The notes under the pieces are model-generated. The model did no database searches. It saw only the letters and a list, made by a program, of their open reading frames with translations, and was not told the origin of the DNA. Below are positions 26,892-33,503 of a stretch of DNA of 64,000 nucleotides, in pieces. A program made the position numbers and the translations under genes. The stretch is from the NCBI GenBank assembly GCA_018816555.1, contig JAHIVT010000097.1, positions 1 through 64,000 on the forward strand. Direction: 5' to 3'. Origin of the DNA: Pseudomonadota bacterium. GTDB taxonomy: Bacteria; Desulfobacterota; Desulfobulbia; Desulfobulbales; SURF-16. The number at the start of each line of letters is the position of its first letter. Position 1 is the first letter of the stretch.

Positions 26892-27371
26892 TCATTTGGC
26901 GGGGAAGAGTCGCCAGCAGGGGTCATATTTCTGTGGATCAAGAACAGCCTGTACGGCAAGCCGCTTGCTGGAGTTCAGGACGATCGGTCCTAAAAGATTT
27001 GCTGTCATCTCCTTGGGGTTGTTTTTCGGAACGGTGAGGATCAGCAGAATATCCTTGTCACTGTCAGCGGTTATCAGCAGTTCCTTCAAGATCTGCCGCG
27101 GAATTTCCGGTTGGTAATCCAATCCCGTAAGCGCTGCGGGAAGAACCACGAAGGCCAGTTGCGGATTATCCAGTGACTGCAGCCACATAAAGGGGGACTT
27201 CGTACTGTGGGATTTCAGAATAAAACGGGTGGACTCGGGAAAGCCGAGAAAGGGGCTGAGCAGGGAAATAATCCGCTCTTTGTCCACACTAATTTCTCCG
27301 AATCGACTGGTCTGCACCGTGATGTTTTTTTCAGCTCCGCTCTGCTCGATATCCTGTTTTAATACATTCAT
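26892..27371 (-). CDS. fliW: Flagellar assembly factor FliW
   Basis: 159 residues, single FliW beta-barrel domain (TSRFGEISVDKERIISL near the N-terminus; FLGFPESTRFIL; LGPIVLNSSKRLAVQAVLDP near the C-terminus). FliW binds CsrA and inhibits it, and is displaced by flagellin, coupling flagellin synthesis to export. The gene follows csrA by 5 bp, the usual pair. Confidence 0.95.
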   Translation of the reverse strand: MNVLKQDIEQSGAEKNITVQTSRFGEISVDKERIISLLSPFLGFPESTRFILKSHSTKSPFMWLQSLDNPQLAFVVLPAALTGLDYQPEIPRQILKELLITADSDKDILLILTVPKNNPKEMTANLLGPIVLNSSKRLAVQAVLDPQKYDPCWRLFPAK

Positions 27372-27713: not shown

Positions 27714-30404
27714 CTACAAATAATCAACAAGGCTGAGCTGCATGGTTTTGGCGGCGGCGCTGAGTGCCGCCTGGTACGCAACTTCTTTGGCTTTCAGATT
27801 CAGAATGGCTTCAGTCAGATCCGTGTCCTGCTTCTCTGACAAAGTTTCCTTGTTTGCAAGTTCCAGGTTGGCATAAATTTCGGTCTGAATGGTGATGCGG
27901 TTCGCCCGGGCACCGAAATCGGAAATCTGGGTGGACAGGGAGGACATTACGTTGTCCAGGTCTTCAAGGGATTTGGTTAGTCCCTGGTTCTGTAGTTCCT
28001 GGGCATTGATGCCGAAGGCGTTGAGGGTATTGCTGTTATCATTGCTGATATTGAAGCTGTACCGGCCGGGATCGGAGCTGTCAATATGCAGGTGGCCGCT
28101 GCTGTCCCAACTGCTGGTCAAGCCCGGGATGCCGTTGATCTTCTGGGCGATTGATTCCGGGGTGTCAAGGGTGATGTCCACCGGAATTTTCATATCCACA
28201 TCAAGAGGGGGATAAACATCATGGTCCGTCACCGTGATGGTGAAATCGCCGGTCTGAAATTTTTCTTCCAGCGGATCTTCAGGATCATTGAGAGTATCCA
28301 ATGTCACATAAATATTATCTTGGGGATGGATGCTGGTGACAAAGGTGTAGTTTCTGCCCCGCAGATAATCCTCCACATCTTTGAGCGCCTTGAAAGCGCC
28401 GGTGTTGGCAATGGCATCTTCACCGTTTTTGGCAATTTCTATCTTGCTTACGGCGCCGACTTTGATTTCCGCATCATTTTCCCTGTCGCCGGTATAGCGG
28501 ACGTTGTTGGCCAACTGGGCAACGGAGAGCACGGAAAGCTTGCCATCGTCGGCTGTATCGGTTGGCTCACCTGTTGACTGCGAACCGCCGGTAAGACCGA
28601 TGGCCTCAAACCCAGGCTCTCCACCACCCGGTGGGTAGGGGGTGGAGAGAGAGCTTTCCAGCATGAAGGTGCGGTCGGACAGGAGTTGGATTGTTCCGGA
28701 ATAGACCTTGTCGGCGGCGCCGGTGGGTGGCGCCCCGTTAGCTCGGGTGATGGAATTGCCGGTGGCCGAGGTTTGAATATGGAGATTGCGTCCGTCTATG
28801 GCTTTTAAGCCAATCTGACCGTTGGCGTTGCGGGTAGCCACAATACCGGTATTGGCCTGCTGGGCGTTGATGGCGTTAAGCAGGACATTGTCGGTATCAT
28901 CATCAATAATCGCCGTTGGACCTAATGAGGCAAAGATATCAACGCCGTTGATAAGCAGATCACCTGCGTCGAGGGTACCTGCCGAAACCGCCGCCGGCGC
29001 CTGCCGGAAAATCGGTGTTACCTCCGCCGTCACTCCGGTGCCGGGTATGGTCTCGCCGCTTGCGTTCATCCAGTCATCGCTGATGCGGTTAATGGCAGCA
29101 GCTTTCGCCTCGGCCGAAGAGGAGGAAAAGACGTCCGATACCCCGTCGGAGCTGATGGTGTCCACCGGTATGCCATTGATGGTCAGATCGTTTGCCTCTA
29201 GCTGGGTGCCATAGACCAGGATGCCGTCGCTGGCAGCATCGGCAAAGCCGACTCCGCCGCCTCCCAGGCCGAGAATGTCAAGGACGGTATCATCGGTATA
29301 GTTGTCGCTGGTCAGCTCGAAGGCTTCGGTTGACTGCAGGGATATCTGGCCGGTATTGCTGCCGGCGCCGACGGAGTAAGTACCTGCGGCAAGACCGGTT
29401 GTGGCTGCCGCAGGGCCGGCAGGATTGGCCGTCTCGGTAAGAGTGTTGATGGCGATGTCCGACTCGTCGCCCGCCATGGCGTTGGTCAGGACCACGCTAC
29501 CTGCTACGCCGCCGTTGAGATTGTCGCCCAGTTCCGCATGGACCCCTGTCTGATCGGTGTATTGATTGAGGGCGGTAACCGCATCAGCCGCAGGACTAAC
29601 CCCGGTGGTGGTGTAGTCGATGGTGACGCCGTTGATGGTGATGCTGACATCTGTGGGATTGCTGTTTGCCGTTTCCGCTCCTCCGGCATAAAGAGTGGTC
29701 ATGGTGGCGGTGACCGGGGTTGTGCCGGCCGGCCAGATGATGTTGTTGATGGCGGTTTTCAGGTTGTCGGCCCCGCTCATGTTGAGGCCGAGAGTGGTGC
29801 CGGCGCTCAGCACGACCGCTCCCACATCCTCACCGTTGATCAACAGATCCCCGGCTGCCAGATCCGTGGTGCCCAAGGTGCCGGAGAGCATGGTGTCAAG
29901 AATGGGAAAACTGTTGCCGTTGATCCGGTATCCGTTTATGTAGCCGAGCATGAAGGGCGTGGGCTCCGTATCGGTATAACCGGTTGTCCGAAAGCCGCCG
30001 AAGACATATTTGCCGTCCCAGCGGGTGTTGGCCAGGGTGACGGCCTGCTCGAGATAAACATGGATTTCGTCGGCAATGTAGGTTCTGGTGACGAAATTCT
30101 GGCTGTCATTGATGCCTGTCAGGGTTTTCGTTTTGGCTTGGGTAATCAGGTCTTTGATGCCGGTGAGCGCCTCTTCTGAGGCGGCGATCATGGAGCCGCC
30201 AAAGGTGATATTTGACTGGTATTGGGAGATCTCGGCCAGGGTGGAGCGCATGCCAAGGGCGCTCACCATGTTGACCGGATTGTCGGAAATTTTCGACATC
30301 TGTAGGCCGGATGAGATCTGGTAGTTTATTTTCCACATATCGGTGGTAATCTTGTTCAGATTATTGCCGATCATACTGTATATCGTGTTGAGAGTTGTCC
30401 GCAT
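27714..30404 (-). CDS. flgL: Flagellar hook-associated protein 3 (hook-filament junction), enlarged
   Basis: 896 residues, about three times the usual FlgL. The flagellin-like N-terminal D0/D1 coiled coil (~1-140, with ISSGLQMSKISDNP) and C-terminal D1/D0 (~810-896, ending KTMQLSLVDYL) are intact. Between them sit several flagellin hook-IN motifs, for example AAGDLLINGEDVGAV (~182-195), EANDLTINGIPVD (~400) and DAGDLLINGVDIFA (~476), and a module at ~300-396 that is related to one in FlgK. These parts should form extra surface domains at the junction. Confidence 0.92.
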   Translation of the reverse strand: MRTTLNTIYSMIGNNLNKITTDMWKINYQISSGLQMSKISDNPVNMVSALGMRSTLAEISQYQSNITFGGSMIAASEEALTGIKDLITQAKTKTLTGINDSQNFVTRTYIADEIHVYLEQAVTLANTRWDGKYVFGGFRTTGYTDTEPTPFMLGYINGYRINGNSFPILDTMLSGTLGTTDLAAGDLLINGEDVGAVVLSAGTTLGLNMSGADNLKTAINNIIWPAGTTPVTATMTTLYAGGAETANSNPTDVSITINGVTIDYTTTGVSPAADAVTALNQYTDQTGVHAELGDNLNGGVAGSVVLTNAMAGDESDIAINTLTETANPAGPAAATTGLAAGTYSVGAGSNTGQISLQSTEAFELTSDNYTDDTVLDILGLGGGGVGFADAASDGILVYGTQLEANDLTINGIPVDTISSDGVSDVFSSSSAEAKAAAINRISDDWMNASGETIPGTGVTAEVTPIFRQAPAAVSAGTLDAGDLLINGVDIFASLGPTAIIDDDTDNVLLNAINAQQANTGIVATRNANGQIGLKAIDGRNLHIQTSATGNSITRANGAPPTGAADKVYSGTIQLLSDRTFMLESSLSTPYPPGGGEPGFEAIGLTGGSQSTGEPTDTADDGKLSVLSVAQLANNVRYTGDRENDAEIKVGAVSKIEIAKNGEDAIANTGAFKALKDVEDYLRGRNYTFVTSIHPQDNIYVTLDTLNDPEDPLEEKFQTGDFTITVTDHDVYPPLDVDMKIPVDITLDTPESIAQKINGIPGLTSSWDSSGHLHIDSSDPGRYSFNISNDNSNTLNAFGINAQELQNQGLTKSLEDLDNVMSSLSTQISDFGARANRITIQTEIYANLELANKETLSEKQDTDLTEAILNLKAKEVAYQAALSAAAKTMQLSLVDYL

Positions 30405-30405
30405 A

Positions 30406-32931
30406 TCACACCGCCTGCAGCAAGGTTTGCATCATTTCATCCGAGGAGGTTATCAGTTTGGCCGCTGCTGAGTAGGCCTGCTGAAATCTAATGAGGTCTG
30501 CCATCTCTTCATCAAGGGACACGCCGGAAGTGGCATCCTTCATGGCGCTCATCTGATCGGTAATCAGTACATTGTAATCGTAATCCCTGGTGACAGTCCG
30601 TCCCTTGATGCCGATGTCGCCCACCAGGGTGTTGTAAAATCCGTCGAGAGTGTCGCTGCTGCCGCCGGTAAACCGTACATATTCATTACGCTGGATGTTG
30701 GTGATGAGCAGGGCATTGGACTGGTCGCCGCGGAAGATTTGTCCGTTGGCGCTGACGGTTCCTGCAGCAATATTATCCACTTTCTGGCTGATGGCGTCAT
30801 TGACGCCGATGGAATCCGCGCTGGAGCCGGTGAAGAAGGTATTGAGTCCTGCCGTGGCCAGAAAATTGGAGGTGTCCCCGCCAAAGGCAAACTGGTGATC
30901 GCTGTCAGGCGTCAGCACCAGCTTGTTATCCTGAATCGTTGCTGCCACCCAGGGGGTTGCCTCGCCGCTGGCATTGATAATGGAGATATTGATGGCATCC
31001 GCCACGTCCTGCAGGGTGTAGGCCCGTTCCAGGGGGACTTCCACCGGTTGCGGCAGGGCCAGGGTGTCATCACTGTTGTAGATCCAGAGCTTGAAGCTGC
31101 CGCCGTCTGTCTGCAGTTCATCCGAATAGTCGTAACCCATCATGGAGAACAGCACCTGATTATCCGAACTGTCAAAGGTCAGTTGGCCGTCACCTGCTTC
31201 ATCGGTGCTGCTGACGTTGCCGCCGCCGAGCCCCAGTTGATCCAGGTAGCGGTCGTCTGTGCCGCCGTTGATATCGATCTGGCTCTTATGGGAAAAGAGT
31301 GACAGCTCGCCGGTGTTATGGGTGGCATCGGCCACATAGGTGCCGTTGGTCAGGCCAAGTTTGAATTCCGTTGACAGCGGATCGGTGTCCAGTCCGTCGA
31401 TAATGATGCGGGACTCGTCACCGGCATTGGTGTTGCGGAGAATAATGGCATTGGCCGCCGCACCGTTGGTGCCGTCGCCCACCAGCGCTTCAATGGTTAT
31501 TTTCGGTATGTTTTCCGGAACATTGGTTGGATCGTTGTAATCCTGGATGGCCTGATTGATGGCTGAAACCATGTTGGCGGCCAGGGTGGCCGGATCCGTG
31601 TCATCAGGCGGGCCGGATGTTGCGTCAACCGTATAATTGACATCAATGCCGTTGACCTGGAAGCTGATGACCGTGCCGTCCTCCCCTGCTGCCATGGCGG
31701 TTACCGCATCGCCGGCGATCTGGGTGGTCAGCTTGGCCTGTACACCGGTAATGGCATTATTGATGGCCTGGGCGGCACTATACGCCTTGGTCTTGGCCAG
31801 GCCGAAGGATGCCGTGCCGCCTTCGATTTTGCCGATGACCCGGTCATTGATGGTCAGACTGCCGGCAGGGATGGTTTCCGTTGCCAGGGCCGGGTCCAGG
31901 GTGCTGGTGAGCAGGGTGGTGTTAGCCGCGGGATCGGCGCTGGTAAGTTGTTCGGATAAAGAGGTCAGACCGACACCCTGGCTGTGCTGCTGGTTTACTT
32001 CCCGGATCAGGGCGTTGGCCAATGCATCCAGGCGACCGAGATAATTGTCCGCAACCCCTGGTTTGACCTGGGTGAATATTTCCATCCAGCCGCCGATACT
32101 TCCTCCCACCTCGGCACCAGTGGCGATGCCTGTTTTCGTCTGGGTGCCTTTGGCGTTGGTGCTGATCCATTGCAGCTGGTCGTCCTGCCAGTCAATCTGC
32201 CATGCCTCATTGTTTTCAACCAGGGTATGACCGTCCCTCATGAGAATGGTGTAGGCCCCTGTCCCGGTTTCGAAATAATTGACATCCATGTATTGTGACA
32301 AATTGTTAAGCACAATGTCCCGTTGGTCGCGCAGGTCATTCTGCTTGTTCAGATCGGTTTCCGATCCGGCGATCTGCTCGTTGAGTTTGGCCAGCTGTTT
32401 GGTGAGAGCATTAACGTCATTGACAGCCGAGCTGAGGCTGACATCAATATCATATCTGGTTTGTGCCAGTTCAGTGTTCATGTTGTGAAACTGGTCAATA
32501 AGGATCTTGGCTTTCTGCACCGTTGAATCACGAGTGGACAGATTTTCCGGATAGGAGGCCAGGGTCTGCCAGCTGGCCCAGAATTCACTCATCAGTTCAT
32601 TGACCGCCATACCGGGTACTTCGTTAAAGGAAGTCTCCACCAGGCGCATGGACTGCTGCTGCGCCTCAAGATTGCTCAGGGTGGAGTTCTGGCCGATCAG
32701 TCTTTTCACCATGAACTGGTCGTAATGGCGGTTGATCTCCATGCCCCGAACGCCGTTGCCGAAAAAACCGACCCCTTCAGGGGTAGGCAGGTTAGGGGTA
32801 AGGGTCAGGGTTTGTCTGGTGTAGCCGGGGGTATCAACATTGGCTATATTGTGGCCTGCCACGGAAACCGCCTGCTGGTGAGCAAGAAGCGCCTCTTTGG
32901 CAGTGTTTAAAATCTGGGAAATACCGACCAT
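30406..32931 (-). CDS. flgK: Flagellar hook-associated protein 1, enlarged
   Basis: 841 residues (E. coli FlgK has 547). The N-terminus ISQILNTAKEALLAHQQAVSV with HNIANVDTPGYTRQ is the rod/hook-protein signature; the C-terminus (EEMADLIRFQQAYSAAAKLI) is the matching coiled coil. The enlarged middle contains a hook-IN-like motif (IPAGSLTIND, ~350), and at ~490-585 the segment RNTNAGDES...LGLTNGTYV...LGLGGGNVSS related to FlgL. It is the first junction protein on the hook. flgL begins one base after its stop. Confidence 0.93.
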   Translation of the reverse strand: MVGISQILNTAKEALLAHQQAVSVAGHNIANVDTPGYTRQTLTLTPNLPTPEGVGFFGNGVRGMEINRHYDQFMVKRLIGQNSTLSNLEAQQQSMRLVETSFNEVPGMAVNELMSEFWASWQTLASYPENLSTRDSTVQKAKILIDQFHNMNTELAQTRYDIDVSLSSAVNDVNALTKQLAKLNEQIAGSETDLNKQNDLRDQRDIVLNNLSQYMDVNYFETGTGAYTILMRDGHTLVENNEAWQIDWQDDQLQWISTNAKGTQTKTGIATGAEVGGSIGGWMEIFTQVKPGVADNYLGRLDALANALIREVNQQHSQGVGLTSLSEQLTSADPAANTTLLTSTLDPALATETIPAGSLTINDRVIGKIEGGTASFGLAKTKAYSAAQAINNAITGVQAKLTTQIAGDAVTAMAAGEDGTVISFQVNGIDVNYTVDATSGPPDDTDPATLAANMVSAINQAIQDYNDPTNVPENIPKITIEALVGDGTNGAAANAIILRNTNAGDESRIIIDGLDTDPLSTEFKLGLTNGTYVADATHNTGELSLFSHKSQIDINGGTDDRYLDQLGLGGGNVSSTDEAGDGQLTFDSSDNQVLFSMMGYDYSDELQTDGGSFKLWIYNSDDTLALPQPVEVPLERAYTLQDVADAINISIINASGEATPWVAATIQDNKLVLTPDSDHQFAFGGDTSNFLATAGLNTFFTGSSADSIGVNDAISQKVDNIAAGTVSANGQIFRGDQSNALLITNIQRNEYVRFTGGSSDTLDGFYNTLVGDIGIKGRTVTRDYDYNVLITDQMSAMKDATSGVSLDEEMADLIRFQQAYSAAAKLITSSDEMMQTLLQAV

Positions 32932-32933
32932 TA

Positions 32934-33503
32934 TCAGACCTCTCTGCTTACCAGGGAAGGGACAGAGTTTTTTCTCTGCTGCCGTCCCCGCATACTGTAA
33001 AGTCGATCACCGGTAACCTCCCCGCAGATGAGCGAGATGGCATCGTTCAGATAACCGAGGGTATCACTGGCAAAACGCTTGTTGATGAGATTATTGCTGC
33101 TGATCTTTTCCCGCAGTCCGGCCAGTTGATCACGATATCTTTTGACGGCAAGTGTCTGCTCGCGGGTCATAAAAGGGATCAGCTCGGCAAGTTTGATCAT
33201 CTTTTTATTGTTCTGCGGATTGGTCGTGACAATGCGTCTGGCAACCTCCTGGAGGGAGTGGTCGAGCTGGGCAATCTTGGCAAGTTCGCTCTCTTTCTTC
33301 TTTGTCAGAGAAATCAGCGAGGCAACATTCATATTGATCAGGGCGTGCTTTTCCTCTTCCAGGATGGCGAGAAAGACCGAGGAGATGGCAATCTGCCGTT
33401 TCAGGATATCAAGAATCAGCGGCAGCGGAAAGGCCTGTCCGTTTTGCGGTAAACCTGTGAAATCCTCGTTCTGGTCATTTTTCATCGCAGTTTGTGCATT
33501 CAT
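32934..33503 (-). CDS. flgN: FlgN-family export chaperone
   Basis: 189 residues, helical. The segment ILKRQIAISSVFLAILEEEKHAL followed by LTKKKESELAKIAQLDHSLQ is typical of FlgN, which binds FlgK and FlgL before export. Its gene is directly before flgK and overlaps flgJ by four bases. Sequence similarity within this family is low; the call rests on pattern and position. Confidence 0.8.
   Translation of the reverse strand: MNAQTAMKNDQNEDFTGLPQNGQAFPLPLILDILKRQIAISSVFLAILEEEKHALINMNVASLISLTKKKESELAKIAQLDHSLQEVARRIVTTNPQNNKKMIKLAELIPFMTREQTLAVKRYRDQLAGLREKISSNNLINKRFASDTLGYLNDAISLICGEVTGDRLYSMRGRQQRKNSVPSLVSREV

Follow-up and report, generated by a model that had tools for sequence, protein, structure and literature searches.

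The two proteins that join the flagellar hook to its filament, FlgK and FlgL, are encoded side by side in the window (the whole 64,000-nt stretch of DNA analyzed here), and both are large, which raises the question of what has been added to them and what role the added material might play at the junction. In the solved junction of Salmonella, the ring seated on the hook is made of FlgK and the one beneath the filament of FlgL, and the D2 domains of both are exposed (PMC12221982). A preliminary description of the locus had proposed that a module was duplicated between the two genes, perhaps to match a large flagellin surface domain or to serve as an adhesin or sheath component.

Ordinary junction proteins with enlarged outer regions

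The host genome measures 4.93 Mb and belongs, judging from its relatives, to the Desulfobulbales. Its minus-strand flagellar genes are ordered as an FlgE/F/G-type rod gene, flgA, flgH, flgI, a rod-binding protein gene, flgN, flgK, flgL, and fliW, with flgM residing past the fliW end of the cluster on the plus strand. The reading frames of flgK (30406..32931, minus strand, 841 aa) and flgL (27714..30404, minus strand, 896 aa) are both intact. Directly upstream of flgK is flgN (32934..33503, minus strand; Pfam FlgN, 1.6e-15), which encodes the export chaperone for FlgK and FlgL, and downstream of flgL is the gene for the flagellin assembly factor FliW (26892..27371, minus strand; Pfam FliW, 4.9e-33). 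FlgK, the proximal layer of the junction, exceeds the NCBIfam TIGR02492 cut-off (338.9 versus 170.75 bits) and matches Pfam FlgK_D1 (7e-50); its counterpart in the nearest named record, an uncultured bacterium, is 95% identical. FlgL, the distal layer, likewise passes TIGR02550 (171.5 versus 127.2 bits) and matches Flagellin_N (4e-14).

Structure models strongly supported the cores of both proteins. The FlgK model (AlphaFold2, mean pLDDT 82) superimposes on Salmonella FlgK 2d4y with a VIA Z of 34.1 and an rmsd of 1.6 over 330 residues. For FlgL (pLDDT 59), confidence is high only in the core, which matches 5yti, 5zj0, and 2d4x (VIA Z 20-21, 194-217 residues, rmsd 2.5-2.6); the packing of the FlgL modules is not supported by this model. 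Comparison with the structures bearing the FlgK/FlgL D2 beta-sandwich (4ut1, 5zj0) was of whole chains only. In their D0/D1 cores, both are typical junction proteins. Their lengths had been described as unusual, and this is true with respect to the 553- and 317-aa chains of Salmonella, but large FlgL proteins are already known, including the 750-aa chain of the C. jejuni junction complex 9gsx and FlgL models of 749-827 aa in NCBIfam.

A domain shared by FlgK and FlgL

The two proteins share a domain, here termed A, that occupies residues ~337-592 of FlgK (31156..31923, minus strand; module HMM 261 bits, phylum search 276 bits) and residues ~166-403 of FlgL (29196..29909, minus strand), where a module of the same kind was recovered by BLASTP, shuffling, the module HMM, and the phylum search. 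By BLASTP, FlgK 340-586 aligns with FlgL 168-398 at 36% identity over 258 columns (E=4e-23), and the ordered words that had first drawn attention to the pair all fall inside this alignment. The shared block is therefore real, but the span originally assigned to it was too narrow, as the likeness extends over ~240 residues. Against 500 shuffles, the A modules of FlgK and FlgL score at z=23.7, and the portion following the IN units still reaches z=20.5. Because this latter value was obtained outside the IN units, the resemblance goes beyond the generic hook-IN motif, to which it might otherwise have been reduced.

Hook-IN motifs had been reported in both proteins. Pfam Flagellin_IN was found in two stretches of FlgL (PF07196, 26.9 bits versus a cut-off of 22.7, with the best stretch lying in the second domain described below), whereas FlgK yielded no match to this family. 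IN-like units do occur within each module, and Pfam IN matches are present in FlgL, flagellin, and FliD; what distinguishes the present case from the isolated motif is that the likeness spans the whole ~240-residue domain and that FlgK is without a Pfam IN match.

A second shared unit of ~100 residues was revealed when the two family alignments were compared by hhalign (probability 97.4%, E 4e-11). It corresponds to FlgK residues ~597-713 (30793..31143, minus strand) and FlgL residues ~701-798 (28011..28304, minus strand), and is weak in a direct pairwise test of the single sequences (z 2.4).

The added domains are of flagellin type

FlgL has two such domains in succession, A (~164-404) and then a diverged domain, B (~397-633). 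The B module profile (residues ~399-627; 28524..29210, minus strand; module HMM 177 bits) represents a flagellin-type outer domain with IN motifs, and matches the outer domains of solved flagellins from H. pylori (FlaA, 9ygu; E 4e-20) and from C. jejuni (6x80; E 4e-16). Since B matches solved flagellins and the profiles of A and B are homologous to each other (E 7e-19), the inserts of FlgK and FlgL are best described as flagellin-type outer domains. The A profile itself matched no solved PDB chain at E<=1, solved flagellins included, and A is tied to flagellin outer domains only through B and through weak matches in other flagellins. Both modules are under purifying selection, with within-genus dN/dS values of 0.12-0.24 (0.13-0.17 for the A module of FlgL) that are near those of the cores.

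The same modules were sought in the organism's own FliD and flagellin. FliD contains one Pfam IN motif and no match to A or B, while the flagellin, which is cut by a contig end, gives a weaker match that places it in the same superfamily (7e-13). This main flagellin (L087, G000:C107:1-2500) ends at the contig end after 331 aa and is 805 aa long in the closest relative. Another relative encodes a 1168-aa flagellin with several IN-type modules (L178:190-3693, G029), one of which matches the module profile at 2e-38 and groups with B. A long repeat insert after the IN domain, exemplified by AAGTTLGGD, is also present in flagellins from the window's genus and from several relatives (L170:154-2565 of G001, L173, L174, L176, and L179). 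Matches to Pfam Hexapep within these inserts (3e-8 in L170, 6e-11 in L176, 2e-15 in L179) suggest that the filament surface bears a left-handed beta-helix, for which no published account was found in a literature search.

An ancient transfer followed by vertical descent

In trees of the modules, all A modules of FlgK form one clade with support of 100/100, nearly all B modules form a separate clade, and the A modules of FlgL group with those of FlgK, apart from B. These groupings are explained by a single old transfer between flgK and flgL, before the module-bearing families split, followed by vertical descent. The proposed duplication between neighboring junction genes is thus borne out, although as an ancient event common to the module-bearing Desulfobulbales, among them Candidatus Desulfobia pelagia. 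A recent exchange between flgK and flgL of this genome, by copying or gene conversion, is ruled out, as every module clusters with the corresponding module of other species. Constraining the FlgL A modules to one clade was not rejected by the AU test (p 0.59), and the first transfer may have proceeded in either direction, from FlgK to FlgL or the reverse.

In one species of the window's genus (G003), FlgL has no A module. The leader of A has been kept and at the IN motif runs straight into B, with TDLAAGDLVING joined to IAVS, a hybrid junction that fits loss of A by recombination between IN motifs. In a different relative (G026), an FlgL-like A module is found within a 1900-aa DUF4347 surface protein (L078:329-6031) and branches among the A modules of FlgL; here the domain has moved out of the flagellum.

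FlgL varies stepwise and FlgK does not

Among the relatives surveyed (58, then 20 more genomes), almost every FlgK of the module-bearing families either measures 815-870 aa and has a single A, or reaches ~950 aa and has one A plus part of a second. The lengths of FlgL in ~60 relatives fall in steps, with proteins of ~650 aa carrying B only, 870-900 aa carrying A and B, 1100-1160 aa carrying two A modules and B, and 1230-1460 aa carrying three or more A modules. In the longer proteins, the A units are nested between the two halves of B, and a tandem arrangement also occurs. Many FlgL proteins are without A although the FlgK of the same organism keeps it. Three families of the Desulfobulbales have a plain FlgK of ~465 aa and a plain FlgL of ~330 aa, with flagellins of ~490-800 aa. 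No strong A module was detected outside the Desulfobulbales in 297 genomes of the phylum; the matches there were weak, and the best three occur in large flagellins.

Two species of the window's genus possess a second flgK-flgL pair (L061, G005:C23:40620-43097; L062, G002:C173:12346-14823) with 52-53% identity to the FlgK of the window, and the second flgL of G002 is interrupted. In Caldimicrobium, Thermodesulfobacteriaceae, and Thermodesulfobacterium (L105, L107, L109, L115, and L121), FlgK measures 1070-1460 aa beside a plain FlgL of ~315 aa; these proteins contain no A- or B-type module, FlgK having been enlarged differently.

FlgL length follows flagellin length

Flagellin lengths were taken from open frames, excluding truncated ones where a contig end was seen and using the longest flagellin. 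Independent contrasts relate FlgL length to flagellin length in the first set of genomes (r=0.57, p=0.002, 27 species), in a replication set drawn from other genomes (r=0.73, p=0.0009, 17 species), and in both sets together (r=0.66, p=1e-6, 44 genomes). Removal of the two largest species leaves r=0.61 in the combined sets and p=0.11 in the first set alone. Permutation of the tips gave p 0.0005 for both sets and p 0.01 for the replication set alone, and the relation is also seen across 13 species of a single genus (rho=0.76). The median flagellin is 537 aa where FlgL has B only, 821 aa where it has A and B, and 877 aa where it has more. There are exceptions, namely three B-only species with flagellins of ~830 aa and one A+B species with a flagellin of 475 aa.

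No corresponding relation with flagellin length was observed for FlgK (r=-0.10) or FliD (r=0.09). The suggestion that the junction proteins match a large flagellin is therefore supported for FlgL, whose length is correlated with that of flagellin in two genome sets, and not for FlgK, whose size is fixed. In other families of the phylum, FlgL and flagellin lengths gave rho 0.23 (p 0.22, n=31) for pairs that were assigned by score alone and may include misassignments. As the relation is not significant among these 31 genomes, a phylum-wide rule was rejected, and the link is a feature of this group.

Discussion

Some elements of this system are already known, including the similar repeats of giant flagellins and the D2 fold common to FlgK and FlgL; new here are the copy shared by FlgK and FlgL at the level of sequence, the stepwise copy number of FlgL, and the connection between this number and the size of flagellin. 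A search of the literature, covering open papers only, found no published report of the A module or of a relation between FlgL and flagellin length. FlgK and FlgL of Burkholderia pseudomallei and Xanthomonas campestris also carry similar outer domains, the D2 beta-sandwich (PMC6155364), but these consist of one domain with ~80 matched residues that was judged by fold, whereas the modules described here are ~240-residue, IN-type domains that are recognizable by sequence and vary in copy number in FlgL. C. jejuni has a large FlgL with a bulky D2 (PMC12221982), and Foldseek ranks chains A and B of 9gsx among the best matches to our FlgL model, yet the A profile matched no solved chain. Giant flagellins have grown in their outer region through DE domains in tandem and through a DX insert that is nested (PMC6248924). 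The junction proteins resemble them in whole-domain duplication, insertion between copies, and vertical inheritance, and differ in that the growth affects the junction proteins themselves and that the size of FlgL is tied to that of flagellin.

Because the filament rests on FlgL while FlgK is the layer at the hook, and because only FlgL length follows flagellin, we favor as the best explanation that the outer layer of FlgL is fitted to the filament surface while FlgK remains constant, a reading to which we assign a probability of about one half. The size link itself is a correlation, from which we infer selection for fit. The FlgL ring would carry the first ring of flagellin, and its outer layer could be selected to match the bulk or diameter of the filament surface. 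A fitted FlgL would provide a graded step from the hook to a thick filament as well as side contacts between outer domains, and FlgK, seated on the hook, would stay constant in size. Each A unit begins with IN motifs, and in-register recombination between these has probably removed some units and added others. At slightly less than even odds, FlgL may be an adjustable size adapter that gains or loses whole flagellin-type domains through recombination, under selection for a number that fits filament thickness, with FlgK as a fixed collar on the hook.

The modules could instead be surface ornaments of no fitted size, whose numbers drift by recombination while the correlation reflects a shared tendency of some lineages to expand surface repeats. 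This explanation, which we regard as rather unlikely, gains from the recombination between repeats by which A modules change, from the lack of coupling between FlgL and flagellin in the wider phylum, and from the high variability of flagellin outer domains described in two reports (PMC12445082, PMC7018530). Set against it are the failure of FlgK and FliD of the same genomes to follow flagellin, the purifying selection acting on the modules, and the fact that, in the species examined, flagellin is often enlarged by an unrelated beta-helix-like or unassigned insert rather than by A modules. A contact between the A domain of FlgK and that of FlgL, stiffening both rings whatever the size of flagellin, would be in keeping with the A module and second unit that the proteins have in common and with the like-to-like contact of D2 domains proposed for other bacteria on the basis of an FlgL crystal structure (PMC6155364). 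Such a contact cannot be required, given the FlgL proteins in which A is missing while FlgK retains it, and we consider this kind of reinforcement improbable.

We find it most doubtful that the modules, displayed on the junction, act as adhesins or attach to a sheath or to a surface polymer. No direct support for the adhesin or sheath role raised at the outset was obtained, the sole hint being the A module, close to those of FlgL, that resides in the DUF4347 surface protein of a relative. Pfam matched no known adhesin family, the relation between FlgL and flagellin length is not predicted by such a role, and the junction, with what we infer from PMC12221982 to be only 11 copies of each protein per flagellum, would be a poor site for an adhesin.

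The role of the outer domains of junction proteins has not been tested in the literature (PMC6155364), nor has the manner in which the parts of the flagellum stay matched when flagellin doubles or triples in size relative to the usual protein. Within one order, the module-bearing relatives offer a natural series of FlgL proteins with one to five outer domains and of flagellins from ~300 to 1400 residues. As related species differ by one unit, the fitting of FlgL to the filament surface is directly testable by swapping FlgL variants.
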